Source: a virus. Taken from it: 33,422 bases of DNA. The notes under the pieces are model-generated. The model saw only the letters and a program-made list of their open reading frames with translations. It ran no database searches and was not told the origin of the DNA. The stretch covers positions 1 through 33,422 of the IMG/VR virus record IMGVR_UViG_3300036761_001395; one strand, 5' to 3'. Positions 6,101-33,422 of this stretch are shown one piece after another; position 1 is the first letter of the stretch; each line of letters begins with the position of its first letter. Position numbers and translations under genes: made by a program.

Positions 6101-6267
6101 CGCCTGGCCTTCCGCTTCTTCGGCTCCTTGGGAATCTGCACGATCATCGGCGACCATGCCCAAACGTTGCCGCCGTCTCGCCCGTCGAAATACAAATGGA
6201 GCGTGCCATTGCGGTTGATGTCGATCTGCTTCACCTTCGCCCCTGCTAACTCGTCAATCCGTTTCAT
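6097..6267 (-). CDS. Small protein of unknown function
   Basis: A 56-residue protein starting at ATG 6267 behind a strong GGAGGTGA ribosome site. An extended frame further upstream only shadows the methyltransferase gene. The sequence suggests a beta-hairpin ([17 protein letters not shown]) and a very basic tail ([11 protein letters not shown]). It is coupled by overlap to both neighbours. Confidence 0.6.
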
Positions 6268-7460
6268 GTCTTCACCTCCGCAAACAGTGGCGCCGTCCCC
6301 TCGATGCGACGGCGCGCTATTTCGACGTACTCCGGCGAAAGGTCGATGCCGATGAAGTTTCGCCCGGCTCGCAACGCCACAACGCCCACTGTGCCCGAGC
6401 CGGCGAACGGATCGAGCACCGTGCAGGCGATGGGCTGATGGCCGTGGTCGCAGCCAGGCACCCATCCGAGGGTGTCCACGAGGCGCCTGGTGCGCGAGCC
6501 CCCGCTAATGTTTTTGACCAAGCCGCCCTCGTTCGTCTTTACCCCGCCGCCGCCCGCAGGTCGGCCGTCTGTCGTCGTATCGTTCCGGTAGGAAATCTCA
6601 ATTTCACGCCGCCACGGTGCCCCGCACTTAGGGCAACACCCCCCCTCGCTGCTCCCCGCCGCGATGCAAGGCTCAACCAGCGCCTCGGGGAAGGTGGCGA
6701 AGTGCGCCTCGGGGAAGGGCTGCGTGGGGATCGTCCAGACGGAGCGGCGATTACGTGACGCTGGCGGCGGTTCCTGAAAATATCGTGCATTGAAACCGGA
6801 GTGTCGGCGCCCGTGGCCGTCCTGTTTCGTCTGTCCAGGCACGTCCAATCGCGGTGGCCCGGTTAGGTCATGCCATGTTCGACCATCGGCCGGCTCCTTG
6901 ATCGCCTCCCCGTCGTAGTAGTACCGTGCTGATTTCGTCAGCAGAAAAAGGTACTCGTGAGATTTCGTCGGCCGGTCGGTCACGCTCTCCGGCATGGGGT
7001 TCGGTTTGCTCCAGATAATGTCGGAGCGCAGCCACCAACCATCAGCCTGCAACGCGAATGCCACACGCCAGGGGATGCCGACGAGATCCTTGGGCTTGAG
7101 TCCGCACGCCATCTTTGTCCCCGACGCTTCGCCGCGAGCCGCCGCGACCGTCTTCGCGCCCTCGCTAGGGTTCCCCAGTTCGACCATGCGCGCTTCGCCG
7201 CGCCCACCCTGTGTTGCATAGCTGTCCCCGAGATTCAGCCACAGCGTCCCGTCCCCGCGCAGCACCCGCCGCACCTCGCGGAAAACCTCGACCAGCTTGG
7301 CGACGTACTCCTCCGGGGTGCGCTCAAGTCCGAGTTGGCCCGCGATGCCGTAATCCCGGAGGCCCCAATAGGGCGGCGACGTGATACAGCACTGCACGCT
7401 CTCGTCCGGCAGCAGCCGGAGCTGCTCAAGCGCGTCGCCGCAGAGGAGACGGATGGTCAC
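6264..7460 (-). CDS. DNA methyltransferase, beta class (N4-cytosine or N6-adenine)
   Basis: A 398-residue S-adenosylmethionine-dependent DNA methyltransferase. Motif order is that of the beta class: catalytic motif IV TSPPYW at residues 27-32, and AdoMet-binding motif I DPFAGSGT near the C-terminus. The TSPPY form favours N4-cytosine but does not exclude N6-adenine. A CxxC zinc knuckle (CCPKCGAPW) lies between. GTG at 7460 begins 12 bases after the upstream stop and gives a normal N-terminus; an upstream in-frame start at 7529 would add 23 unsupported residues. No cognate restriction enzyme is adjacent, so it is probably an orphan enzyme that protects phage DNA or marks promoters. Confidence 0.9.
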
Positions 7461-7471
7461 TCGGCGTCCGC

Positions 7472-7930
7472 TCAAGGCCGAGCTGGCCAGCAATTGCCGG
7501 CCGTCGTTCCCGGGGAGGCATTGGCACACCTAGCCCCACAAGAGCTGTATCCACAAATGTCTACCCAGGAATCAAAGTGGTCCGGGGTCTCGGCCAGGCG
7601 CGCGACCTTCACCAGGATCTCGAAGATCGCCACGTCCACACTCCCGAGTTGGCCTACGTCGTAGTTCCCCTCGGCGTCCTCGGTGCCCTTCGCCATCAGA
7701 TAGGCATTCCAGAACCGGGCGATATTGGCGAAGCTGTCTTCAGGCGGCCCGTACGCCTTCTGGCGATGTGCAAGGACGCAGCCCGCGGCCTCCACGAGCA
7801 CCCGGGCGCGGGGGTCTAGCCTGTTCCACGCCTCGTGTAGCAGTTCCAGGGTTGTAGGGTCTCGTTGTGGTAGTGGCTTCGGGACTGGTATTGATTGTTG
7901 CTGGTTACGAAGGATTTCAGCGAGATCCAT
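7472..7930 (-). CDS. DUF6378 family protein
   Basis: A 152-residue protein with the DUF6378 pattern: [19 protein letters not shown] in the middle, then LVKVARL, and [12 protein letters not shown] near the C-terminus. The family is common in phages and is thought of as all-helical; its reaction is unproven, though a resemblance to MazG-like helical nucleotide hydrolases is an inference. ATG at 7930 follows an excellent AGGAGG site, and the promoter B region lies just upstream. Confidence 0.8.
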
Positions 7931-11748: not shown

Positions 11749-12275
11749 TCAGTCCTCCGCAGATAGTTGATTGCCTTTTGGAGGAGGTCCGGGTTGTCGT
11801 GCAAGAACCCAGTGGCCTTGTTGCACCCATGGCAGAGGAGGCCACGGACAGTTCCGGTGGCATGGTCATGGTCCACATCGAGCACCGACCGGCTCCCACT
11901 TGGAATCTCTCCGCAGATCGCACAACGACCACCTTGCGCGGCCACCATTGCATCGTATTCCTCGACAGCAAGACCATACTTGCGACGAAGGTCGGCTTTG
12001 CGTTGGTATTCACGTACCCTCTCGGGGTTGCCTTCTCTCCACTTGCGCGCGGCCCTGCGCGTTTTGTCGGGATGCTCCACTCGGCGCCGGCGGCTGTACT
12101 CTCGGGTGCGCACGAGCGCTTTCTCGGGATTCTCCGCATACCGCTTGCGGTGGAGCGCGTTGAGTTCCTCGCGGTGCGCCGCCCTGTACTTGCGGTTGGA
12201 CTCGCGGTACTTCTCCAGGTTGGCTGCGTGGTGCTTGCGCTGGTACTCGCGCTTCTTCTCTAGATCACGTGGCAT
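11745..12275 (-). CDS. Recombination endonuclease VII-like HNH nuclease
   Basis: A 176-residue protein whose C-terminal half fits the endonuclease VII/HNH fold: KYGLAVEEYDAM, then CAICG (zinc), then LDVDHDHATGTVRGLLC, then HGCNKATG. The DVDHDHATG motif is the catalytic signature and the four cysteines bind zinc. The N-terminal 80 residues are a basic helical array of tyrosine/arginine repeats (for example KKREYQRKHHA), likely DNA contacting. Such enzymes resolve branched DNA before packaging. ATG 12275 is behind GGGAGAGGGG and overlaps the RNA ligase gene by 11 bases. Confidence 0.85.
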   Translation of the reverse strand: MPRDLEKKREYQRKHHAANLEKYRESNRKYRAAHREELNALHRKRYAENPEKALVRTREYSRRRRVEHPDKTRRAARKWREGNPERVREYQRKADLRRKYGLAVEEYDAMVAAQGGRCAICGEIPSGSRSVLDVDHDHATGTVRGLLCHGCNKATGFLHDNPDLLQKAINYLRRTE

Positions 12276-13218
12276 TCTCGGCCCCTCTCCCAACTACGCC
12301 GTTGAAGAAAGCAAGCGCCGTCTCTCGCCCACGCTGGTACACAGCCTTTTTGAGTTGGCGCAACGACAGGATGTCCACCTTCTTTTCAATCCACCAATCG
12401 ATTAGTTCTTCGTACGCGCATTCATGCCAGAGCCGGCCCAGAACCTCTTCCATCGCCCGAACGTCAGCGGGTTCACCGTGCAGGTCGGAGACCTTGCCGA
12501 CGACCTTGAGTACCGCATCATCCGTCACGACATCGGCGACGAATCGCAATTCCGGGGCGTCCCACCTGGAGGCGCCCATGTGGAGCTTGTGGCGCTGCTG
12601 GAAGTCCTCGCCCACCACCTTGCCCCATGTGACTCGCCCGAAGCGGTTGACGAACCCGTACCGCTTGGCGACCACGCCCTCGCGCTTCGGTGCGCCGAGT
12701 GCGCTTGGACCTGCCACCAACTCAGCGATCTGAGCGGCGGCCGGGTCAAGGAGACAGGTGACTGTCGGGACGTAACGGCAACCGAGATCGTCCGCCACCT
12801 TCAGCCACTCGTCGGGGTGGACGTACTCTCCGGTGTCATACCGCTGGCAGTCGAAGATGTAGAAATGCTTGTAGTTGTCGGCTGCATAGTCCTTGACCGA
12901 ATGCGGCACCAGCCACTCACCGCGCACGATGTATACCGCCGCGAGCGTCTGTAGCCCGTGATGCCCAAGGATGTACTCGACGAGCCCCCGGAACCCGTTT
13001 GGAGGGTCGCCAGCGACCGACACGGCGCTGTTCCGGCTTGCGATCACCAGTCGCCCGGTCTCCGGCTCGATGGCCACCGTCGCGTTGGCCCCGTCGAGTT
13101 TCTCCTGGACGATCACCTCGCCGTCGAGCAGACCCTCAACGTCGGCATGCCCGAGGCGCTCGATGTGCTGATAGCGGGGCAGCCAGTCAGAAAAAAGCAT
13201 TCCGGTCCCGTTGCTCAT
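12265..13218 (-). CDS. RNA ligase (Rnl2-like nucleotidyltransferase)
   Basis: A 317-residue ATP-dependent ligase. Motif I is KLDG at residues 40-43, with Lys40 the adenylated lysine in the context QEKLDGANATVAI. RGE at about residues 99-101 fits motif Ia; HFYIFDCQ near 118 fits motif III; REGVVAKR near 179 is motif IV; and WGKVVGEDF near 198 carries the motif V lysine. RNA ligases of this type seal nicks in RNA, classically host or phage tRNA cut by defence nucleases. No polynucleotide kinase is seen in the window. The encoded phage tRNAs could be substrates, which is inference. Start ATG 13218 follows GGAGG. Confidence 0.87.
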   Translation of the reverse strand: MSNGTGMLFSDWLPRYQHIERLGHADVEGLLDGEVIVQEKLDGANATVAIEPETGRLVIASRNSAVSVAGDPPNGFRGLVEYILGHHGLQTLAAVYIVRGEWLVPHSVKDYAADNYKHFYIFDCQRYDTGEYVHPDEWLKVADDLGCRYVPTVTCLLDPAAAQIAELVAGPSALGAPKREGVVAKRYGFVNRFGRVTWGKVVGEDFQQRHKLHMGASRWDAPELRFVADVVTDDAVLKVVGKVSDLHGEPADVRAMEEVLGRLWHECAYEELIDWWIEKKVDILSLRQLKKAVYQRGRETALAFFNGVVGRGAENAT

Positions 13219-13234
13219 CTTGTCCTCCGGCGGG

Positions 13235-13933
13235 CTATGACGCCCGCTTTGCGATGCAGTTCTCCACCACGACCTCGCACCCGGGGATGCAGAACGAGTC
13301 TTTCTGCGCTCGCGCCATCGCATCGAGCGACTTCTCGTTGGGGAGCAGGCACGAGGCGAGGATCGCGGGGTTGGCGACCGCGAACACCGCGAGTTTGTGC
13401 AGGTCCGTCACGCGGCACGAGTACAACTTGCGGAACGACGTGCCCTCGAGGACAGGGGCCCCGACGGCCATCGGTAGGATGGCGGCGGGTGCCGGGGGCG
13501 CGTTGAGTACGGCCTGTGCGGCCTCCTTGTGGCCGGCGGCCTCGAGTGCCGCCGCCTGCGCGAGCTGGGCATCGTCGGCGGCCTTGCGCGCCCCAGCCTC
13601 GGCCAACATCTGCTCCCTGCGGGCCTCCGCCTCCCTCTGTGCCTGGTAGTCGCCCATCTTCCGCTTGACGACCTTTTCCGCTTCGTCTACCGGGTCGGAG
13701 TACCGCTTCTTCGTGGCAACCGCGAGTTTGTGGCTGCGGTGCAGGCTGGCAACAATCTCGTCATAGCCCTCGTCGATCTTCTTGCGCAGCGTCTTGATGT
13801 CACCCAGGAAGTCGTCCGCGAGGACGTAGTGCTCGTCGGTCTGGATCGTGATGCCCTGGGCGGCGACGAGCAGCTCAGAACTCTGGCTCGCCAGTTCGGG
13901 CCTCTCGTGTACGATGATGTCAGCAGAACCCAT
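13235..13933 (-). CDS. Coiled-coil protein of ERF/exonuclease operons
   Basis: A 232-residue protein with a long central coiled coil (from AEKVVKRKMGDYQAQREAE) and a C-terminal globular tail: EGTSFRKLYSCRVTDLHKL, then FCIPGCEVVVENCIAKR. This tail resembles an uncharacterised protein often encoded beside ERF or RecT annealing proteins in phages, ending in an IPG-V-E-K pattern. It is likely an accessory of the recombination pair next to it. ATG 13933 gives normal spacing; a 14-base overlap joins it to the nuclease gene. Confidence 0.65.
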   Translation of the reverse strand: MGSADIIVHERPELASQSSELLVAAQGITIQTDEHYVLADDFLGDIKTLRKKIDEGYDEIVASLHRSHKLAVATKKRYSDPVDEAEKVVKRKMGDYQAQREAEARREQMLAEAGARKAADDAQLAQAAALEAAGHKEAAQAVLNAPPAPAAILPMAVGAPVLEGTSFRKLYSCRVTDLHKLAVFAVANPAILASCLLPNEKSLDAMARAQKDSFCIPGCEVVVENCIAKRAS

Positions 13934-14513
13934 GATTGCGCCTCCACCACACACAGTTCACGGCTGAAAGGAATACCGTCTGGTCCGACGGGTCGAGGAA
14001 CGGGGGGCTGAGCTTGTAGTAACCCTCGCGGAACAACTGCAAGGAGTACCGCTCCGGCACATAGACGCCCGTTTCCTCGTGATAGGCGAACTGGTAAGCG
14101 GCAGTCTGGAGTTTCACGGCCTCTCCCGGATCGCCAGTTTTTACGTCAATGAGTGCCAAGGCTGGGTTGCCTCGGAAGACACCTATGAGGTCGAGGATTC
14201 CGGCGAACATCCGGCTGACCGAGCAGACGGGTCGCTCGACCTCTGTGGCGACAAACCCCTTCTCCACAAGAAACCGCCTGTAGCCTTGGATGTAGCCAGC
14301 GTACTCCGAGAGCAGCCGTGACTCATCAAGGTCGTTCTCGTGTAGGGCCTGGATGCACTGGTGGATATACGTTCCGCGGTCTCGGGCGTTGTCGTTCCAC
14401 CAGCGGTCATCGACGAAGTGCGCGGCCTTGAGTACGCTGGTGACGCCCGGCAGCGCCACGCCGTTGAGCGCGTGCGTGTGCGTTGCCGGGTCAAAGGTGT
14501 AGCCTTGGATCAC
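13920..14513 (-). CDS. PD-(D/E)XK exonuclease (Cas4/RecB-like)
   Basis: A 197-residue nuclease of the PD-(D/E)XK fold. The catalytic block is visible: RMFAGILDLIG (metal-binding Asp), then LIDVKTGD (the D-x-K motif), then LQTAAYQFAY, the glutamine motif of the RecB/Cas4 type. An N-terminal helical part contains GTYIHQCIQALHEND, also typical. It would resect DNA ends to make single strands for the ERF protein encoded directly upstream. GTG 14513 is chosen because GGAG lies five bases upstream and it overlaps the ERF stop. Confidence 0.83.
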   Translation of the reverse strand: MIQGYTFDPATHTHALNGVALPGVTSVLKAAHFVDDRWWNDNARDRGTYIHQCIQALHENDLDESRLLSEYAGYIQGYRRFLVEKGFVATEVERPVCSVSRMFAGILDLIGVFRGNPALALIDVKTGDPGEAVKLQTAAYQFAYHEETGVYVPERYSLQLFREGYYKLSPPFLDPSDQTVFLSAVNCVWWRRNHGFC

Positions 14514-15319
14514 ATCCACTCCAGCGCGGTGAGGTTCATGAACCCGTTCTTGACCTCGAAGCCGATCATCACGGGGTTCTTCTCGACGAGTGCCTTCTCG
14601 GCGAGTTCTCCGAGGGCCGTGTCGAACGTGCTCAGCGTCTTGTTGTCCGAGGTGTGGATGACGAAGTACAACTTCTTGGCCTTGGGAGATGTCTTTCTTG
14701 TGACGCTGGTGAGCAGAACCGGCAGCGGCAGGTCGTCGTCGTCCCCCGGCTCGCGGCCAGCGGGCGGCTCGGGTTGAGGATCTTGCGGTGCTGCGGCTGC
14801 CGGGGGCGGCGCTGCGGCCGCCGTCGGTTGATCGCTCTTGCGCGGGACCTGGGTGCCGGACGTCTTGACCCCTCCGTTGTCGTCACCCGCATCGTCACCG
14901 CACGAGATCATGAACACCTTGGAGAGGAACGCCTTGCCAGCGAATGTCTGCGCCTTCTGTAGAGCCTTGTCGCCCCAGTCGGCGGCCTCGCCGCTCATGT
15001 AGCAGGGGCCAAGGGTTTCCCCGGTGGCCGCGTCGATGAAGGTGTAGCCGACGCGCACGGCGAAATGCGAGGCTTCCTTGCCCTCCTTCGATCGCATGGG
15101 CGCGAGGGTTGTTACCGACTCCTCGGATGGCAGGCAGAGGATGGCCTCGCCAGCGAGGAGCGGGCGCAGACGTTCCATGACCGCATCCTCGGAGCGGTAC
15201 ATGAAATGCTGCTCCTTGTTCTGTAGGTCCTTGGGGATGCCGCCGACCTGGCCGAGAATCTTGGTCAGTTTGGCGACGAGTCCCGGGACCAGGGCCACAG
15301 TCTTCTCTTTCTCGGGCAT
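14510..15319 (-). CDS. erf: ERF-family single-strand annealing protein
   Basis: A 269-residue protein of the ERF recombinase type, which anneals complementary single-stranded DNA. The N-terminal core shows LVAKLTKILGQVGGIPKDL, then FMYRSEDAVMERLRPLL, and EAADWGDKALQKAQTFAGK, as in ERF proteins. A disordered Ala/Pro/Asp linker follows, then a C-terminal domain from about residue 200. The PD-(D/E)XK nuclease and coiled-coil protein immediately downstream support a recombination set. ATG 15319 is behind AGGAGTGAG. Confidence 0.85.
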   Translation of the reverse strand: MPEKEKTVALVPGLVAKLTKILGQVGGIPKDLQNKEQHFMYRSEDAVMERLRPLLAGEAILCLPSEESVTTLAPMRSKEGKEASHFAVRVGYTFIDAATGETLGPCYMSGEAADWGDKALQKAQTFAGKAFLSKVFMISCGDDAGDDNGGVKTSGTQVPRKSDQPTAAAAPPPAAAAPQDPQPEPPAGREPGDDDDLPLPVLLTSVTRKTSPKAKKLYFVIHTSDNKTLSTFDTALGELAEKALVEKNPVMIGFEVKNGFMNLTALEWM

Positions 15320-15320
15320 C

Positions 15321-15545
15321 TCACTCCTCCTTCTCTGCGAGGCGGATGATGGTGCGAAGAACCGCGTCGTCATCCCACAGGTCCTTCTCGGTCAACGCGG
15401 CTCTCAGCCTTTCCAGATCCCGCTGCGCCTCTGTCTGGTCAGGCTCGTGACAATGGCAAATGTGCGAGCCGTCGTTCGCGTCAACCCACCACCCGCGCGT
15501 TCCGGGCATTTCCCTTATCTCTCGTTTGCAGTGTTCGCACTTCAT
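15321..15545 (-). CDS. Small zinc-binding protein
   Basis: A 74-residue protein with CEHCKRE at residues 3-9 and HICHCHEPD near residue 28, a Cys/His set that should bind zinc, then a charged helix. ATGA overlap with the gene upstream fixes the start. A one-base gap precedes erf. Confidence 0.6.
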   Translation of the reverse strand: MKCEHCKREIREMPGTRGWWVDANDGSHICHCHEPDQTEAQRDLERLRAALTEKDLWDDDAVLRTIIRLAEKEE

Positions 15546-23352: not shown

Positions 23353-24504
23353 CTACTGGTAGATGGTCGGTTCCGGAAGTTCGCGGCGGTCGGCCAGGAT
23401 CAGCTTGCGATCCCAGCTCACGCCGATGTTGCGGTGAACGCCGAGAATCCTTTGGAACGGAAGGCCGCCGGCCTGGAGTCGTTTGAGCGAAAACTCCGAA
23501 CCGCCGACAAAGCTACCGTTCATGAAGATGTCCGAGAAGCTGGCCGGCTCATGGTGGTGAGCGACCATCACATAGTCGAAGTCAACGCTCTCGCCCGACA
23601 CCTTCTTGAACGCCTGCTTGAGCACCTCGCGCATTCGCGCCTTGAACCCGAGCGCCCCGTAGAACGGAATCCGCAGCCAGGATTGAAACTCGTCGCCGTG
23701 CGCGACCAGGAACCGCCATCCCTGGGCCTCGAGCAGCATCCACCAGGTTTCGGGCAGGTTGAAGCGAACGCCCTCGATTTCGGAGAGCTGGAAACGCTCC
23801 CGGAGGAAGTGCATCATCAGGTAGTCGAGGTTGTCGTTGGGTGCCAGTTCGCCCTTGAGTCCGATCCGTGCGTGATTGCCGGGCACCCCGGATACCACCA
23901 CCTCATCGAACATCGCGCGCAAGTCGAGAATCAGGCGGACGAACGCCTCGTATGCGTGGATTACCTGCTGCACCACCGGCAGGTCGATCTGGCGCTGCTG
24001 ACCGCGAAAGATGGTCGAGCCGTCGATGATGTCCCCGCCAAGTACCAGGTGGACCCGTTTGACCGGGTTCGGGGTATAGCGCAGGATCTTGGCGACTCCG
24101 GAACACAGTCGCTCCATGCGCTCGGTGAACACCTCGAAGTCGTAGTGGCCGAGTCCTCCGGTCTGGGTCGCGGAGACAAGGGACCCGACGTGACAATCAG
24201 AGACGTGAAGGATCACATCCTCCTCGTCGAGCTCGGGGTCCACCTTCCGCACGACGCGCTTCACCTGGAGCGCGGGAAGTGCCCGGATTGAATCGCTGAT
24301 CGCCGTCGCAAGTTCGCTGGTGGGCGGGACGATGGGATCCGGCTCAACGGCCGCCTCGCCCGCCTGCTTCACTGTGCGGAGTAGCGTCCTTGCTTTCTCC
24401 TCGCTGAGGTTCAGGGCGTCCATCAGACTGTGCCGCCCGGCCCCTCCTTGAACCAATGCCCGTGCCCTTTCAATCAACTCCTGGGTCAACCACGGTCTCG
24501 GCAC
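23353..24504 (-). CDS. Metallophosphoesterase with N-terminal HTH
   Basis: A 383-residue calcineurin-like phosphoesterase. The metal motifs are SDCHVG (DxH), GGDIIDG (GDxxDG), GNHAR (GNH), and later AHGDE and AHHHEP in the order of the family. The N-terminal 50 residues (LTQELIERARAL and LNLSEEKARTLLRTV) look like a helix-turn-helix. Phage members may act on nucleic acid ends or nucleotides. GTG 24504 is behind AGGAGG and promoter C lies 46 bases upstream. It is followed by the small genes and secreted-protein genes in the same operon. Confidence 0.85.
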   Translation of the reverse strand: MPRPWLTQELIERARALVQGGAGRHSLMDALNLSEEKARTLLRTVKQAGEAAVEPDPIVPPTSELATAISDSIRALPALQVKRVVRKVDPELDEEDVILHVSDCHVGSLVSATQTGGLGHYDFEVFTERMERLCSGVAKILRYTPNPVKRVHLVLGGDIIDGSTIFRGQQRQIDLPVVQQVIHAYEAFVRLILDLRAMFDEVVVSGVPGNHARIGLKGELAPNDNLDYLMMHFLRERFQLSEIEGVRFNLPETWWMLLEAQGWRFLVAHGDEFQSWLRIPFYGALGFKARMREVLKQAFKKVSGESVDFDYVMVAHHHEPASFSDIFMNGSFVGGSEFSLKRLQAGGLPFQRILGVHRNIGVSWDRKLILADRRELPEPTIYQ

Positions 24505-24904: not shown

Positions 24905-25444
24905 TCAACCGGAACCGAACAGCGGGCGCATCTTCTCGCGCCACCGGAGCACAGAGACCTCGTACGGGGAGCCCGGTACAGGATGGCCCGCATTGTAGGC
25001 GCTCACTGCGCCCGCCCCGAAGCGGCTGAGTAACTTCGCAAGCCACCGGCAACCCCACTCCAGCCCCTCGGCCGGGTCGCACAGGCCCGGCAGGTACTCA
25101 AGATGGCAGCCGGCCTCGCGGGCGCAGGCCCCCATGATCTGAAGGAGTCCCCATGACGCCTGCTGGCCCCACCATTCTTGATCGCGGTCCCCGGCCCGGC
25201 ACGGGAAGTCGGCCGGCGGGAACTTCGACGCGACCTCTGCTTGCGTGACCCTTCGGAACGGTTTCTGCCGCTTCACGTCCCAAAACCACTGATAGCGGGG
25301 CTCGGGGTTCCAGGCGTCGGACTTGCCCCCGGATTCCTGCATGACGAGGGCGGCGACCAACTCCGGTTCGAGGCCAAAGCGCAGCGCGGGGGCCTTGACA
25401 CTTTCGCGGTCGGGTGCGTTCTCGAAGTCGAGGACCGGCCTCAT
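24905..25444 (-). CDS. Lytic transglycosylase endolysin
   Basis: A 179-residue SLT-type peptidoglycan lytic transglycosylase. VMQESGGKSDAWNPE near residue 34 has the catalytic Glu of ESGG; ASWGLLQIMG and LSRFGAGAVSAYNAGHP complete the SLT pattern. There is no signal peptide, so release depends on a holin. It may also be a virion-associated or tail lysozyme. ATG 25444 overlaps the preceding stop by ATGA. Confidence 0.87.
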   Translation of the reverse strand: MRPVLDFENAPDRESVKAPALRFGLEPELVAALVMQESGGKSDAWNPEPRYQWFWDVKRQKPFRRVTQAEVASKFPPADFPCRAGDRDQEWWGQQASWGLLQIMGACAREAGCHLEYLPGLCDPAEGLEWGCRWLAKLLSRFGAGAVSAYNAGHPVPGSPYEVSVLRWREKMRPLFGSG

Positions 25445-25739: not shown

Positions 25740-28700
25740 TTACCGCGGGCGACCCGCGGCCCATCTCTCATACCATTCGTTTGCGATCCGGAGGGTTTCC
25801 TTGTCTTCGGGGCCCAGCGACGCGAGGAAGGCAAGACGCTGGGATTTGGGGACGGTACCCATCGGCGCCGAGAGCCGGATACTCGACATCATTCCCGGCC
25901 CCGTTCCGCCTCGCTCCGTGTATTCGGCAAGCCACTTCTTCGCCGCCTTCTCGTCTCCCCACTGGAGCGCCTTCTTGTAGTAGTAGAGTGCGTTCTGCCG
26001 GTTGGTCGGATCGCCGCCACCGGCACTCTCCTTGCCGTGGGTGTCATTCCACCGCCCGGCCTGGTCTCGGATCAGGTAGTAGGCGGCCTCGCCCGGGTCC
26101 GTAGCGTAGGTGAGGAAGGCATCCACGACATTCGCGGCCACCCCCCGGCGCTTCGGTTTCCCGGTCACAAGGTCATAGAGTTGAGCGACCGAGAACACGC
26201 GCGCGATGTGCTGCGCGCGGTCGCGGATCGGGGTGCCGCGCGGCTGGAAAGAAGTTCCCGACTCAAAGGTCTTCATCCCCACGCGCCGGCCCAGGGCCAA
26301 CTCGAACACCGTCTTGGAGAACGGTTCCCACGCGGAGACGATCCGCTCGGCGGGTCCCTTGATGGCGTCGGCCGCGATGTCCTTCCACGTCTTGCGACCC
26401 GCAGCCAGGCTCTCGATCTCGTGCGGCCAGTTGCCAAGGTTCAGCCAGTCCAACGCATCGGACAGTGCCCCCTCGAACCGAATGTACCGGATCGAGCCGT
26501 CCGCGCGGTGGCCCAGGATGAGGGACAGCTTGTCGCGGTTGCGGTTGAGGAGTTTGTCGTCCTCCGGAAACATCGTCCGGTTCCAGAGGTAGACCATCGC
26601 GAACAGCAGGTTGGACAGAATGGCAAGTCGGAACCACCGCCCCGCCAGCCACATTGCGCCGCGCTTTCCGGCGACCGCCGCGACCCGCTCCGCCGCCCCT
26701 CTGCCGGGTTTCTCACCCTCGGCTGTCCGCTCGTGTGCAAGGTTCTTGAGCAGGCGCACATACCGCGGTGCGTTGATCTCCTGCCACGACCAGAACGGGG
26801 CAAGGTGGGAACGAAGGTACTGGCCGGCAACCGAGACGTCGCCATAGTCACCGATCGCCTCGCGCGCCAGCTTGGCCGCAACATCCTCCAGGGTGCGGGT
26901 GCCCTTGGCGACGGCATCATAGAGGGCGTCCATCTCATCGCGCGGCGAGGCCCAGTAGAGCCGGTCCCCCGCGCGCAGCCGCTTGAGAGCCCGACGATAC
27001 GCCGCCAGGCGCAGCCCGTTCTCGCGCCAGGTGGTGAAGGTCTTGACTCCACCCCAGTACCGCTCGATGGCCCCCTGCACAAGGTTGGGGTTGCGGCTCG
27101 TCAGTAGACGGAATGCGCCGACCTTGTTGATGTCCTGGATCTCGGCCACCGTCAACCCGGATTCGATGACGCCCCGCTTGATGGCTTCCTGCATCTCCTC
27201 GCGCAGGGCCGCCGACACCCGATGCGTGACCTGGTAGCCCCATAGATCACGGGCCGCCTTGAGGTACTCGTGAGTGACGATCCCGGGATCAATGGCGATT
27301 GCGATGTCCATGTCGCCACTCTGGTTGTTGAGGTTGTAGCGGAGTGCCCTGGCTGGATTGAGCAGCGTCCACTGTTTCCATGAACTTTCCGCTGCGACGG
27401 CCGCTCGTTCCACCGGACTCTCGTCATGGTCCCGGTAACTGTCGAGTGCCTTGGCGAGGCTCGTAGGGATTACCCACTGGCGCTTGACGCCGCCAATCAC
27501 CAGTACCCGCTTGAGGTCTTCTACCGAGAGGGAGCTGGTGCCATCGAGTACACGGGCAAGCACCTTCTCGGGGATGGTGAGCGCGCCGAAGAAGTGATTG
27601 CCCTTCTCCGGCTGCCAGAAAGCGTAGCCCTCCGGCACGAGGCGCTGGTCGATGCGCTGCCCCTGGTAGCCCCACGTCAGATAGTTGCCGCCGAGGCGCT
27701 GGCGGGTGAACGCCTCGCGGTCCGAGATGGCCTTGAAGACCCCGCGGGCGGGTCCGGAACCCGGGCTGTCATTCTGCTCCGCAAGCCAGGAGAGGAACGG
27801 CCAGAGCCCATCCGTGTCGCCTTCGGCGGCCAACTGATCCGCGACCTTGCTATACCGCTCGGGAACCTCGACCTGGCCATCCTCGATCATCCCCCGGAGC
27901 TGGCTCATGGCGATGGCGATGCGCTGACGGAAGGGTGCCAGTACGTCGAGCTCGCGCAATTCGGCGATCTCCTCGTCGCTAATCTCGTCGCGAGGGATCG
28001 AGCGAAGGTACTGCACCCGCTGGTAGTTGTCGAGTCCGCCGAAGAGTTCGATGTTGTTGTGCGTCCGCGCCTCTTGGCGCAGCCGGTCGGCGATGTTGAG
28101 GGCGCGATCGAGTTTGTCGAGTGTTTCCTTGGTGGCAATCTGTGCGACGGCCTGCGAAAGCCACTCGAACTCCGCCTCGGTGTACCGGGTGTTAAAGTCG
28201 TGCTCGCCGCCCACGCGCCGCTTCTGGAACCCTTTCTTGTGCAGGCGCACATCCCCCGACCCGGTGCCGACGAACTTCGTCTTCTCGGGTTGGTAGTGCG
28301 AGAGTACCTGCCGGTGATAGTAGGCGCCCGCGTTGTTGAGCGCCTCTTCGGGCAGCAGTTCAAGGTCCACGAGTTTCTGCACGATTGCCTGACGCTGTGC
28401 AATGGCGCGTTCCAAGGCGGCGTGGACCGGGGCGTTCTCGGGCAGCGCCAGGACGGCCTCGTACTTCGCAAGGTCTTCGCGTGCTTCGTCTGCGTTCTCG
28501 TACCCGAACGAGAGGGTGCTGTCCTCGGTGTCGATCCCACTTTCGACGTTGCGCACGATGTCGCGCAGCGCCAGAACGCGGGTCAGGAGATCCTCGCGCT
28601 TCGGGCCGAGGTCGCGGGTGACGTTCCATAGGATGTCGTGCGCGACCGCCTTGGCGAGGGACGGCACGGCGTTGTACTGGCGCAGGATGTCCTGGGCCAC

Positions 28701-31700
28701 GGCCATCGTCGGACTCTCGTGCGGGTTGATCCCGGGGATCGACCCCTGCCACGCCAACCGCAACTCGACCACGGCCTTGCGCACCTTCATTATCAGGCTA
28801 GCCGAGGGCAACCCCTTGGCGGCGCGCCACCGCTTCTCGACTTCGGGGAACTTCGACTCGACGGCAACCGAGTCCGCCCGCTCGCGGGTACCGAACAGCG
28901 ACTCCAGAATAGCGGCCCACGGGCCGGAGGCGGCGTGCAACTCCTCGGGCCCCTCCTCCTCTGTATAAAGGGTCGGGAGTTTTGGGTATTTGGCTATGGC
29001 TGCATGGAACTTCTCGTTATTGATCTCCTTGTGCGCAAGACTCTTTTCCGCCTCGGATATAGCGTCCATGAAAGTCTTGGCGGGCCGACCGAACGTCGCA
29101 CCTGTGGTGGCCTCGGAGATGATCCAAAGGCCGTCGTCGTTCTGGTAGGCGAAGATGTCCGCCCCCATGATGCCAGCAATCTTCACATCAGGAACGCCCT
29201 CGACCCAGGTGATCGGCCCCAGGTCCGGTCGTCCCGGAACCATTCCGCGCGTCTCGGCGGTGAGGGGGGCAACAATGCGGTACCAATGGCGTCCGCGCGT
29301 TGGAGGTGTCTCCGGCGGGCGCTTGGGCGTTCCCTTCTCGGGCGTGCCCCGACGTTGGTTCAGCATCCTCTCGGAGAGGGCCTTGGCCATCTCCTCATCC
29401 GAAGCAGGCGCAACATGCTTGGCCTTGGGCGCCGGGGTCTCCACCTGACTCCGATGTACGACTTCGGCCACCGGCCGGTACTCAGTGATTCGCCGGAAGG
29501 TTTCCGGACCCTGAGCCCCGGTCGGGATGAAGTACCGTTTGGCGTAGGCGATGCGTTCTGTGAACACGCCGTCGCGCTTCAGTTCGTTGTCGGTCTGGAA
29601 GTCGGGACCGACGATCTCCACGCGCGGCTCACCACCAACGATCGCGCGCTTGACCGTCCACCCGTTCGACAACTTGACGGTGATCCTCCCGTCGGCGATC
29701 TTGTTCATCGCCTCGGTGGGCGTGATCTTGATTTCGCTCTCGGGGGCACCCGCCCCCAGGCGCTCCAGAACGGCGCCGATCTGCCCCGGGGGAATCACTC
29801 GACCGAGGAACCGCTCCCCTTCGTCCGTGACCATCCGTTGTACCTTGGTCATGCTGGTGGGCAGGCGGTCCCACACCGGGAGTAGTGCCCCGGTCAGCAG
29901 GTGGCGGTCCTCCGATGTGAACTGCGGGAGTTCGGCAACGGCCTCGTTCCACTGGCGCTCGGCTTCGGCCAGGTCGTCGATCTTCGTGTACCTCTTTTTG
30001 TAATCGTAGTCGATGCTGTCGGTGTCAACGTAGTGGAAACTGCGCTGGTCGGCGAGACGGTACTGCCGCATCACGTACCCGTCGGGCCGTGTCTTGGTGC
30101 CGCCATCGGCAGCCGCGTAGACCTTGCCATGAGACGAGCGGACAAAGAACTCGGGCTTCTTGCCGCCCAGGCCGGTCCCGCGGTTGACCGCTTCCCACGT
30201 GGTTACCTTGGTCTTGTTCTTCACCTCGAGCTTGATGTACTTGGTCTCGGCGCCGCTCCTCGGGTCCGTGTAGACAATCTGCTCGTCCTTCTTGGCGATC
30301 GAGTCGGCCTTGACCGTCTCCATTCCCTGATCGAGGGTTCCGGTCGCAATCGCCTGGTCAACCTTCTGCTGCAACCGCTCGGCGAACGCATCGAACAGAC
30401 TGTTCTGGGCATCCACCTTGAGGGCCAGAAGACGGTTGAGGAACTGTGTGATCGGCGGGAGCTGCTCTTTCAGATTGCCGTCTTCGGTGGTCAACTTGAG
30501 GCCGGTGCCCGACTCGAACTCGGCGTTGGTGATCCCCTCCACGTCGCCACGATGGATGTCTGTAAGCAACGTCTCAAGCGCGTCACGCGCCTCGGCGCTC
30601 TCCAAGTTGTCGGCAGCCGAGAAGATCCCGCCGGAGCCCGTCTGGCGCTGGCCCTTGGTCAACGCCCCCAGTTGATCGAGGCGCCGGGCAATCGAGGAGA
30701 TGAACCGCTTGTGCCCCTTGATGTCGGTCTCGGTGAGCTTGACGATGGGTGCCGACGCCTGGTTCGTGCGGTGGGTGCGGCCAAGTCCCTGGACAGCCGT
30801 ATCCGCGCGCCACCCGGGCTGCGCGAGGTAGTGGACGCGCCGCTGCTGGTTCTTGGCGGTGCGGTCAGAATGGTAACTGCGGCCCGTGCCCCCGGCCGCC
30901 GAGAACACGAGGATGCGCTTGTTGCCCTCCTGGAAGGCGTCCGTTTCAGCGGCGTTGGTGTGCGACGAGCGCCGTTCCACAACGGTCTTCTGACCGCCGT
31001 CGGGCATCGTCTTGCGCACGATCCTTCGTGTCCGGCCAGTGACCTCCGCTACGTTGTCCACGCCGAAGTGATTGAACAGATGCTCGAGGGGGCCATCCGG
31101 GACGCGAATGCTGGCGAGGTGGTCGAGGAGCCGATCGCGCATTTCGACCGCCTCGGAGTTCTCAACCGGGTTGCCCTTGGAGTCAACCACAAGCCGCCAC
31201 CCGACGTTGCCGTTGTCGTCTGTGTACTGTTCCTGCTGGAACACCGGGAATGCGTGTTGGACCATCTGCATCAGGGCTTCGCGTGGAGTAAGGTCAAGCT
31301 CCTCAAGGTCCTCAGGGCTTTCCGCTTTGGCGATCTGCCGTTCCTGCTCGGCCTCGTTGGTGTTGATGATCTGCACAACGCACGAGTGCCCGGCCTCAAG
31401 TTCCGTCTCCATGTCCGCGATGATCGACGGCATTTGCATCGCGGTGAGCACCTGGTTGAAGAACCTCTGCTGCGTGCCCCAGAACTGCGACATCGCGTTC
31501 TTGCGGGCTTCCTTGCTGACCTTGATCTCGCCGCGGCGGTTCTCGGCTCCGGCTACGATCTCCAGGGCCTTCTCAAAGTTCTGGAGTACGACCTGCCACG
31601 CCTCGGCCAGTTCGTTGTAGATTTCGCGCTGCCCCTCCGTGAGCTGGTGTGTAATGCGTCCCACCTCGACGGTGCCCTCGGGGGTGCCGTCATTGAACGA

Positions 31701-33422
31701 GAGGCTGCGCGCGACGTACGCCCCCATCGCCTTCGAGTTGAGGGCGACCATCTCCATCGCGGCCAGGCGCCCGGCGCCGATGTCCGCAATGAACTTGTGC
31801 TTGGTGGCGAAAGCGGTACCGCGCCCCCACAAGCCAAGCCGGTCGGCATAGGACAGGTTCGAGACCTCGGTAGCTGCCGTTGCCGAGGAATAGACAACGC
31901 GCGCATTGGGCAGTCTCCGCTGGAGCTCGACTCCGGCAAGGGCCTTGGCGGCGGGTTGCTTCTTGCCGCGAACGCCCTTGATCTCGATGGCGTTGCCCAT
32001 GTTGTGAGTCTCATCGAACACCAGCACGCCGTCGAAATCTTCGCCCACCCACCTCACAAGCTGATCGAGGCGCGACGCCTTCTGCTTCTCGGGGGCCTGC
32101 CCTTCCTCGGTCGGCGCCTTCTTCTTCTTGGGGATGCCGGCAAACTCCGAACCACTCTTGAGCGTGTCATAGGTGGCGACCATGATCCCGTGCGTGGACG
32201 CGATCTCCGACCCGGCCTTGATCTTGCCGTAGTCCATGATGAGTTTGGAATCGCCACCAATCGCCGTCCAGTCGCGGCGCGCGTCGTCCACGAGTATCCG
32301 CTTCTCGGTGATCCAGAGGGCCTTCTTTCGGCCCCGCCGCATGTTGTCCATGATGATGCCGGCGATCTCGCGGCCCTTGCCGACACCCGTGCCGTCGCCG
32401 ATCATGAACCCGCGCCGATACGGGGTCTCGCCTTCTGACGCGGGCAGCATCTCCTCATGTGCCTGACCCGCGTAGACCACGGCCTCGAGCTGAGACAGCG
32501 ACAGCAACCCCTTGCTGATAACCTCCTTGGGCAGGTTGGGGCTGTAGGTGGGCTTGGGTGGGAGGACCGAGGCCATCGCCGCACTCTCGACCAGGGCTCC
32601 GGGGTGGGGTTGCGCGCCGGGGATCGAGAGACGCTGTGGCGTGTACGGCTCGAAGATGACGTTTTCATCCAGGGCGCCGGATTTCTTTGCGGCTCCCTGG
32701 TCGGCAACCTCGACGGTGCCCGCTACTTGTTCAGGCTGCTGAGCAGGTTCTCGATGAGGTAGGACGCCGCCTCCTGCGGGCTCAGGCTCTCGATTTGCTG
32801 GCAGGTTTCCAGCGCCGCCTTCTCCAGCGACAGGCCCGAGTCCTGGTTCACCAGGAGGGCCTCCGCCTTCTCCGGCGACCAGTTCAGCATGCGGTTGGCC
32901 TGCTCGAGGAGCTCGGCTCGGTACTTGGATGCCGGCTCCGGCAACTCGCTCAGGTTCTCCAGCCCCCAGATTGCCAGCAGCAGGCTCGAGAGGCAGTGCG
33001 ACTTCGGGGGTTCCCCCACCTTCTTGAGGAAGCGGGCCGCCACCCGGTTGAGGCGGTTTTTGTTCAAGGTTCGGGCTTCGGCGATCATCTCTGACCTCAC
33101 TTAGAAGATCGGCTCCGTGTTGCAGGGTGTCAAAGTCCCCGACCTGGACGATGCCCGTGGTCGGGCCGGTCTTGTCAATTACAAGGATACGAGTTGCAAA
33201 CGCCGTGCCATACTTGGCATAGACGCTGGCCGGGGCCCCCATGTTGGCCCGGACGTTGTACTCCTTCTGGATGCGACCCCACCACGCCCGGTAGGTCTGC
33301 GCGTCCATCGTCATGCCGCGGCCGACGATCGACACCAGGCGCCCGCCCGGGGCCAGACGCTTGAGGGCTTGCTCGATGTGGTGGGCGCCCGCCATGATCT
33401 CGCGCTTGTCACCCATCCGGCC
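25740..33422 (-). CDS. Giant polyvalent protein: N6-adenine methylase remnant, Strawberry-notch helicase, long C-terminal region (N-terminus beyond window)
   Basis: At least 2560 residues remain; the N-terminus lies beyond the right edge. Bases 33130-33422 encode the end of a Rossmann methyltransferase: GAHHIEQALKRLAPGGRLVSIVG, then WWGRIQKEYNVRAN. A Pro/Gly/Glu linker (about 32690-33110) follows. The Strawberry-notch helicase has Walker A GDGTGVGKGRE (near 32374-32406), the DETH box (near 32003-32025), SSATAA and the C-terminal helicase motif QGLGRTHRTNQ (near 30770-30800). The C-terminal 1200 residues are helical, with a segment resembling polyvalent-associated domain LPD38 (NPARALRYNLNNQSGD). 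Such proteins are thought to be injected with the genome and protect or prepare it. Confidence 0.85.
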   Translation of the reverse strand, partial: GRMGDKREIMAGAHHIEQALKRLAPGGRLVSIVGRGMTMDAQTYRAWWGRIQKEYNVRANMGAPASVYAKYGTAFATRILVIDKTGPTTGIVQVGDFDTLQHGADLLSEVRDDRRSPNLEQKPPQPGGGPLPQEGGGTPEVALPLEPAAGNLGAGEPERVAGAGIQVPSRAPRAGQPHAELVAGEGGGPPGEPGLGPVAGEGGAGNLPANREPEPAGGGVLPHREPAQQPEQVAGTVEVADQGAAKKSGALDENVIFEPYTPQRLSIPGAQPHPGALVESAAMASVLPPKPTYSPNLPKEVISKGLLSLSQLEAVVYAGQAHEEMLPASEGETPYRRGFMIGDGTGVGKGREIAGIIMDNMRRGRKKALWITEKRILVDDARRDWTAIGGDSKLIMDYGKIKAGSEIASTHGIMVATYDTLKSGSEFAGIPKKKKAPTEEGQAPEKQKASRLDQLVRWVGEDFDGVLVFDETHNMGNAIEIKGVRGKKQPAAKALAGVELQRRLPNARVVYSSATAATEVSNLSYADRLGLWGRGTAFATKHKFIADIGAGRLAAMEMVALNSKAMGAYVARSLSFNDGTPEGTVEVGRITHQLTEGQREIYNELAEAWQVVLQNFEKALEIVAGAENRRGEIKVSKEARKNAMSQFWGTQQRFFNQVLTAMQMPSIIADMETELEAGHSCVVQIINTNEAEQERQIAKAESPEDLEELDLTPREALMQMVQHAFPVFQQEQYTDDNGNVGWRLVVDSKGNPVENSEAVEMRDRLLDHLASIRVPDGPLEHLFNHFGVDNVAEVTGRTRRIVRKTMPDGGQKTVVERRSSHTNAAETDAFQEGNKRILVFSAAGGTGRSYHSDRTAKNQQRRVHYLAQPGWRADTAVQGLGRTHRTNQASAPIVKLTETDIKGHKRFISSIARRLDQLGALTKGQRQTGSGGIFSAADNLESAEARDALETLLTDIHRGDVEGITNAEFESGTGLKLTTEDGNLKEQLPPITQFLNRLLALKVDAQNSLFDAFAERLQQKVDQAIATGTLDQGMETVKADSIAKKDEQIVYTDPRSGAETKYIKLEVKNKTKVTTWEAVNRGTGLGGKKPEFFVRSSHGKVYAAADGGTKTRPDGYVMRQYRLADQRSFHYVDTDSIDYDYKKRYTKIDDLAEAERQWNEAVAELPQFTSEDRHLLTGALLPVWDRLPTSMTKVQRMVTDEGERFLGRVIPPGQIGAVLERLGAGAPESEIKITPTEAMNKIADGRITVKLSNGWTVKRAIVGGEPRVEIVGPDFQTDNELKRDGVFTERIAYAKRYFIPTGAQGPETFRRITEYRPVAEVVHRSQVETPAPKAKHVAPASDEEMAKALSERMLNQRRGTPEKGTPKRPPETPPTRGRHWYRIVAPLTAETRGMVPGRPDLGPITWVEGVPDVKIAGIMGADIFAYQNDDGLWIISEATTGATFGRPAKTFMDAISEAEKSLAHKEINNEKFHAAIAKYPKLPTLYTEEEGPEELHAASGPWAAILESLFGTRERADSVAVESKFPEVEKRWRAAKGLPSASLIMKVRKAVVELRLAWQGSIPGINPHESPTMAVAQDILRQYNAVPSLAKAVAHDILWNVTRDLGPKREDLLTRVLALRDIVRNVESGIDTEDSTLSFGYENADEAREDLAKYEAVLALPENAPVHAALERAIAQRQAIVQKLVDLELLPEEALNNAGAYYHRQVLSHYQPEKTKFVGTGSGDVRLHKKGFQKRRVGGEHDFNTRYTEAEFEWLSQAVAQIATKETLDKLDRALNIADRLRQEARTHNNIELFGGLDNYQRVQYLRSIPRDEISDEEIAELRELDVLAPFRQRIAIAMSQLRGMIEDGQVEVPERYSKVADQLAAEGDTDGLWPFLSWLAEQNDSPGSGPARGVFKAISDREAFTRQRLGGNYLTWGYQGQRIDQRLVPEGYAFWQPEKGNHFFGALTIPEKVLARVLDGTSSLSVEDLKRVLVIGGVKRQWVIPTSLAKALDSYRDHDESPVERAAVAAESSWKQWTLLNPARALRYNLNNQSGDMDIAIAIDPGIVTHEYLKAARDLWGYQVTHRVSAALREEMQEAIKRGVIESGLTVAEIQDINKVGAFRLLTSRNPNLVQGAIERYWGGVKTFTTWRENGLRLAAYRRALKRLRAGDRLYWASPRDEMDALYDAVAKGTRTLEDVAAKLAREAIGDYGDVSVAGQYLRSHLAPFWSWQEINAPRYVRLLKNLAHERTAEGEKPGRGAAERVAAVAGKRGAMWLAGRWFRLAILSNLLFAMVYLWNRTMFPEDDKLLNRNRDKLSLILGHRADGSIRYIRFEGALSDALDWLNLGNWPHEIESLAAGRKTWKDIAADAIKGPAERIVSAWEPFSKTVFELALGRRVGMKTFESGTSFQPRGTPIRDRAQHIARVFSVAQLYDLVTGKPKRRGVAANVVDAFLTYATDPGEAAYYLIRDQAGRWNDTHGKESAGGGDPTNRQNALYYYKKALQWGDEKAAKKWLAEYTERGGTGPGMMSSIRLSAPMGTVPKSQRLAFLASLGPEDKETLRIANEWYERWAAGRPR
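32723..33088 (-). CDS. Overprinted gene inside the polyvalent protein linker
   Basis: A 121-residue helical protein in a different frame of the same strand. ATG 33088 has GAGG six bases upstream, and it ends at TAG 32723. Counting the first codons by hand, 36 of 41 in this frame end in G or C against 18 of 42 in the giant frame over the same bases, so this frame carries the genome codon signature. The protein (RLNRVAARFLKK, LSSLLLAIWGLENLSELP, SPQEAASYLIENLL) reads like a compact helical fold. No family is recognised. The giant frame here is a Pro/Gly/Glu linker, as expected for an overprinted region. Confidence 0.6.
   Translation of the reverse strand: MIAEARTLNKNRLNRVAARFLKKVGEPPKSHCLSSLLLAIWGLENLSELPEPASKYRAELLEQANRMLNWSPEKAEALLVNQDSGLSLEKAALETCQQIESLSPQEAASYLIENLLSSLNK

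Follow-up and report, generated by a model that had tools for sequence, protein, structure and literature searches.

In ShiLan, an HNH homing endonuclease is hidden in the other frame of a phage methylase gene (PMC11855218). The ardD gene lies within tniA of Tn5053 in antisense orientation, and its antirestriction activity has been tested (PMC3533173); for viral overprinted genes, codon usage tells which of two frames is ancestral (PMC3744397). The polyvalent methylase-helicase dyad, represented by DarB of P1 and by Strawberry-notch variants, acts in antirestriction (PMC5512222), and a term search of that paper found no mention of an overlapping gene. Here we describe a candidate gene nested in the second frame of such a dyad.

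The window analysed is the entire 33,422-nucleotide virus record IMGVR_UViG_3300036761_001395. Its giant polyvalent gene (25740..33416, minus strand; 2558 codons when counted from the first ATG) is cut off by the contig end at 33416-33422 and lacks its N-terminus, so the 2560 residues given for the protein in a preliminary description are a minimum. The contig end falls inside the methylase. What remains is the C-terminal part of a DNA methyltransferase domain (33087..33416, minus strand), which is predicted at a pLDDT of about 90-97 and conserved with methyltransferase-Strawberry-notch (MTase-Sno) relatives, where an N-terminal methyltransferase with the catalytic motif is present. Downstream the giant carries both Sno domains, the NTPase domain AAA_34 (PF13872; 31611..32609, minus strand, E 5.6e-105) and the C-terminal Helicase_C_4 (PF13871; 30318..31091, minus strand, E 6.8e-88). 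Between methylase and helicase the giant frame reads as a Pro/Gly/Glu linker (codons 110-231; 32724..33089, minus strand), as had been described, and its residues 115-222 are predicted to be disordered, with AlphaFold pLDDT below 50, and the methylase and helicase parts on either side are well folded. The contig also encodes, on the minus strand as well, a DNA methyltransferase (6264-7529), an RNA ligase (12265-13323), an ERF ssDNA annealing protein (14510-15373), an SbcD-like exonuclease (23353-24504) and an SLT transglycosylase (24905-25444).

Across the linker, on the same strand and in the +1 frame of the giant gene, lies a complete and fully embedded ORF of 121 codons (32723..33088, minus strand). 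It has its own start signals, an ATG preceded at 5 nt by the Shine-Dalgarno (SD) sequence GAGGT (33094..33098, minus strand), and ends in TAG; the ribosome site, start and stop reported in the preliminary description are all present. The giant gene as a whole has a GC3 of 0.806; over the nested ORF the value is 0.397 in the giant's own frame and 0.926 in the nested one. Among the first 41 codons of the nested ORF, 36 end in G or C, the same as the earlier hand count; for the giant frame there we obtain 19/42 in place of 18/42, which leaves the contrast standing. Scored by fit to the giant's own synonymous preferences, the nested ORF reaches +0.39, and the 12 other same-strand alternative-frame ORFs of at least 80 codons within the giant score −0.17 or below. 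The giant frame scores as non-coding (−0.42) only over the nested-ORF stretch, and the switch in codon usage coincides exactly with the limits of the ORF. Length was rejected as evidence: the giant holds 13 such ORFs in all, and when codons are resampled with the giant's amino acids fixed, 66% of simulations leave the small frame without a stop. The length of the nested ORF is thus unremarkable by itself, and codon usage is the exceptional part.

As a direct query the window protein matched nothing in Pfam, PHROGs, NCBIfam or PDB, nor any phage, plasmid, viral contig or genome contig, because it is too diverged. The giant's helicase was the one route to homologues: it led to plasmids, 80 genome loci and 80 viral loci, many of them metagenomic and some near-identical. 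Nearly all of these loci carry an ORF of 109-165 codons in the same +1 frame and place, usually ending 17-90 nt before the helicase, and the +2 frame holds almost no such ORFs. The exceptions are giants of two clades, one of Azospirillum type and one from cyanobacteria, alphaproteobacteria and actinobacteria. In three methanotroph plasmids the nested ORFs are all 114 codons long and plainly homologous, and RefSeq annotates the giant only. Among the carriers are Methylotuvimicrobium alcaliphilum 20Z, on its plasmid MEALZ_p (nested ORF at L004:8335-8679), and Sporomusa ovata DSM 2662 (L018). We collected 119 distinct nested proteins from phages and conjugative plasmids, so the arrangement is wider than phages; hosts of these giants belong to at least six phyla (Pseudomonadota, Bacillota, Bacteroidota, Spirochaetota, Thermodesulfobacteriota and Myxococcota). 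A family profile from which the window was left out still matches the window protein at 73.8 bits (E 1.3e-24). The same leave-one-out test on the giant-frame peptides, as a control, gave 21.5 bits with a composition bias of 28.6, and the nested similarity therefore does not merely reflect the giant frame. The preliminary description had named one pattern as contradicting a nested gene, conservation of the giant frame alone with stops in the small one, and the relatives do not show it.

The start signals recur across the family. Of the 119 nested members, 118 start with ATG and one with GTG, and 97% have a normally spaced SD match of at least 4 nt, a share that falls to 36% when the upstream DNA is shuffled. 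When the giant's amino acids are kept and codons resampled, the figure is 74%, and the SD signal is therefore partly tied to the giant peptide LLEG. SD-like motifs are able to stimulate frameshifting, as in RF2 and dnaX, and those at this site could in principle serve a programmed frameshift that joins the methylase to the helical domain, with no internal initiation; ahead of the ATG, moreover, the small frame has a median stop-free run of 8 codons. Since 43/119 members have an in-frame stop at most 4 codons before the start, the ATG stands at normal SD spacing in 118/119, and the free-standing relatives described below have ordinary starts, we regard frameshifting as improbable and internal initiation as the preferred reading.

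Mapped on the helicase tree, in which two of the rows without a nested gene are truncated or masked records (L030, L054), presence of the nested gene requires 4 changes, against a mean of 32.6 after shuffling. Searches of genomes with the nested-family profile nearly always return one copy per genome, at the giant locus (Methylococcales and other groups). The gene is absent from three genomes tested from the clades whose giant is without it, and neither P1 darB nor the non-Sno DarB-like phages phiC725A, phiARM81mr and Acinetobacter MD-2021a have a homologue of the nested protein. Distances of the helicase and of the small protein are only moderately correlated (Mantel rho 0.34, permutation maximum 0.16).

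Some individual loci depart from the common form. At one (L188, L207:6263-6682) the giant is disrupted, its helicase lost after the linker, and the nested ORF is intact at 114 codons. Another (L195, L206:7984-8340) is a decayed relic in a prophage-like region with two TAG stops in the nested frame and a fragment of the giant-frame linker still visible, and L197 is a further decayed relic. In two giants (L002, L012) about 100 extra residues separate the nested ORF's end from the helicase and look like another embedded domain.

Substitution patterns separate the two frames. Over 22 close pairs that are independent of one another, 458, 374 and 755 substitutions fall at positions 1, 2 and 3 of the small-frame codons, and pN/pS is 0.42 for the small frame, 1.42 for the giant frame over the same DNA and 0.20 for the helicase, values that are approximate only, as they come from simple counting (NG86) on overlapping frames. 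The codon-position counts, like the profile of free-standing genes below, are independent of this approximation. By these comparisons the small frame is under purifying selection and the giant frame across the same DNA is not. The giant frame is nevertheless without a stop in 119/119 loci, where 4.7 would be expected open with the small protein fixed and codons resampled by helicase codon usage; for 77 diverse representatives the expectation is 2.7, or 15.7 with the ORF's own codon usage. In the window alone neither frame is open to a degree that stands out statistically: P is 0.66 for the small frame and, according to the codon model, 0.014 or 0.72 for the giant frame. Together, pN/pS and the uniformly open frame indicate that the small frame is selected for its sequence and the giant frame for staying open. 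The earlier suggestion of a passive linker therefore holds for the linker sequence, which is disordered and unconstrained by pN/pS, and not for its reading frame, which has been kept open.

AlphaFold predicts the small product as seven helices (pLDDT 95.7, pTM 0.90), in agreement with the compact helical protein first proposed from the translation. Against Pfam, PHROGs, NCBIfam and PADLOC it has no family match, with isolated weak single-member matches only, and fold searches gave Foldseek E values of 0.48 or worse and VIA Z scores of 3.0 or below, which is no proof that the fold is new. A selfish homing insertion read out of frame would have the geometry of the ShiLan endonuclease, a hidden frame in a phage methylase gene with a stop-free, loop-like host frame (PMC11855218). 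We consider this very improbable here, since the small product matches no nuclease family and its predicted model is all-helical, the gene is present by whole clades and not patchily (4 changes on the tree), and stand-alone chromosomal homologues exist.

These homologues come from Thermodesulfobacteriota, in which 11/297 genomes match the nested-family profile. Nine of the 10 newly retrieved loci are free-standing chromosomal genes (L208, L209, L211-L217, at about 1470-1870 in each; contexts L218-L226) with ordinary starts, 6-12 stops in what would be the giant's frame, and no Pfam or NCBIfam name; the search for a stand-alone gene that the preliminary description had called for thus yielded nine copies. 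In an unrooted tree of few columns they form a single clade with support of 100/100. Four of the nine loci share neighbours that we take to be CcdA and Ppx/GppA genes; three of these four presumably also have a PAS-type kinase as neighbour, and two a sigma factor. One further free-standing copy, of 144 aa, lies in a Bacillota genome (L196:1480-1914, the same as L205:7963-8397). It has 10 giant-frame stops and groups with a nested phage sequence, and appears to be an escape from a giant; a few kb away are genes that we read from the sequence as McrB/McrC-like.

As the DNA of the nine chromosomal genes has no second frame to confuse a profile, a profile was built from them alone and compared with all 350 ORFs of the window. 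There was one significant match, the nested ORF (E 5.8e-9; next ORF 0.14), and the same profile also matches 83/119 nested proteins. One could read the ORF as a chance product of GC-rich DNA that encodes a low-complexity Pro/Gly linker, a reading that draws on how common such ORFs are by length; it is at odds with codon usage, conservation, selection and fold, and is already refuted by the solo-gene match, which leaves it a negligible probability. The ORF at 32723-33088 on the minus strand is almost certainly a real nested gene of 121 codons. Homologues, selection, structure and free-standing relatives all speak for dual coding between methylase and helicase, as first suggested for this locus, and we infer that the small protein is translated and presumably that both products are made from the region.

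In phages and conjugative plasmids from at least six phyla the nested gene stays linked to one and the same enzyme, which suggests that the small protein may be dedicated to the methylase-helicase as its partner or regulator; it would be translated from a shared message and act during phage entry and plasmid transfer. The few changes on the helicase tree and the absence from the three tested genomes whose giant is without the nested gene count for this role. The free-standing copies imply that the protein can work without the giant, which weakens the idea of an obligate partner, and we judge the partner role to be about evenly balanced. Its main rival is that the nested gene is real and an independent cargo, for example for anti-defence or antirestriction, merely carried on the same transcript. 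The acidic character of the family (mean net charge −7) and the free-standing copy near the apparent McrB/McrC genes are in keeping with cargo, and the nearly neutral window protein (−1) is not; strong negative charge would be expected of a DNA-mimic antirestriction protein of the Ard/Ocr kind. Giants of this kind act in antirestriction (PMC5512222) and ardD inside tniA of Tn5053 offers a precedent (PMC3533173), against which stand the lack of any PADLOC or family-library match, the attachment of the nested gene to one host gene with no movement among loci, and chromosomal homologues situated among housekeeping-like genes. We think cargo unlikely, although less so than any other alternative to the partner role.

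In the arrangement that we propose, one DNA stretch would be read in two frames. The giant frame would join the DNA methyltransferase to the Strawberry-notch helicase through a disordered linker, and internal initiation at its own Shine-Dalgarno sequence and ATG would produce a separate seven-helix protein of about 120 aa from the +1 frame. The small frame would be the functional, ancestral-like coding frame and the linker sequence its passive by-product, retained as a stop-free and flexible tether between two enzyme domains. A nested gene read in a second frame, with the linker as by-product and a probable partner role, is very probably the best explanation as a whole. Linkers are about 40-100 aa long in giants without the nested gene and 153-197 aa in those with it. 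Together with codon usage, these lengths favour a pre-existing gene that was caught between methylase and helicase, of which the linker would be the by-product. The preliminary description had posed as alternatives an insertion with both products made and a linker passively translated from an older gene; the results support a combination of the two. The gene may have been inserted into a linker, or the giant may have formed by fusion across a gene lying between its parts; both routes fit the data alike, and capture from cell to mobile element or the reverse is equally compatible with the unrooted tree of few columns. A broader scenario, to which we give somewhat less than even weight, is that a free-standing bacterial family was captured long ago into the methylase-helicase joint of mobile-element giants and became a fixed partner inside its partner's linker, such that more than 100 phages and plasmids make two proteins where the annotations checked show one.

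When a long gene lies within another on the same strand of a dsDNA phage or plasmid, gene callers usually distrust it or throw it out. The gene described here passes independent tests of conservation, selection, start signals and fold, and has solo homologues without a second frame. Through it the class of antirestriction and establishment proteins gains an unnamed family, and it suggests a route by which a gene becomes the linker of a multidomain protein. Missed by annotation, it has a clear experimental target in methanotrophs, which are non-pathogenic.

No prior description of the nested gene was found in the open-access literature, and its likeness to known systems is partial. As in ShiLan, a gene occupies the other frame of a methylase gene whose own frame stays open and forms a loop; unlike that patchy homing nuclease, it has no nuclease match, is fixed in whole phage and plasmid clades, lies between methyltransferase and helicase, and has stand-alone chromosomal relatives. 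Its host gene is of the same kind as the polyvalent methylase-helicase dyad, although P1 darB and the non-Sno relatives are without a homologue of the nested protein. The P1 annotation (L168) shows another overlap in the Dar gene set, iddB antisense within ddrB (26577-26975). Like ardD it is an overlapping gene on a mobile element, but ardD is antisense and the nested gene is on the same strand. With viral overprinted genes it shares a second frame across a disordered region, and it can be judged by the same test of codon usage, under which the hidden frame would here be the older and the linker derived; there are also free-standing cellular relatives. The nested gene stands apart from these precedents by its age, its breadth, its lack of a nuclease and its solo relatives.
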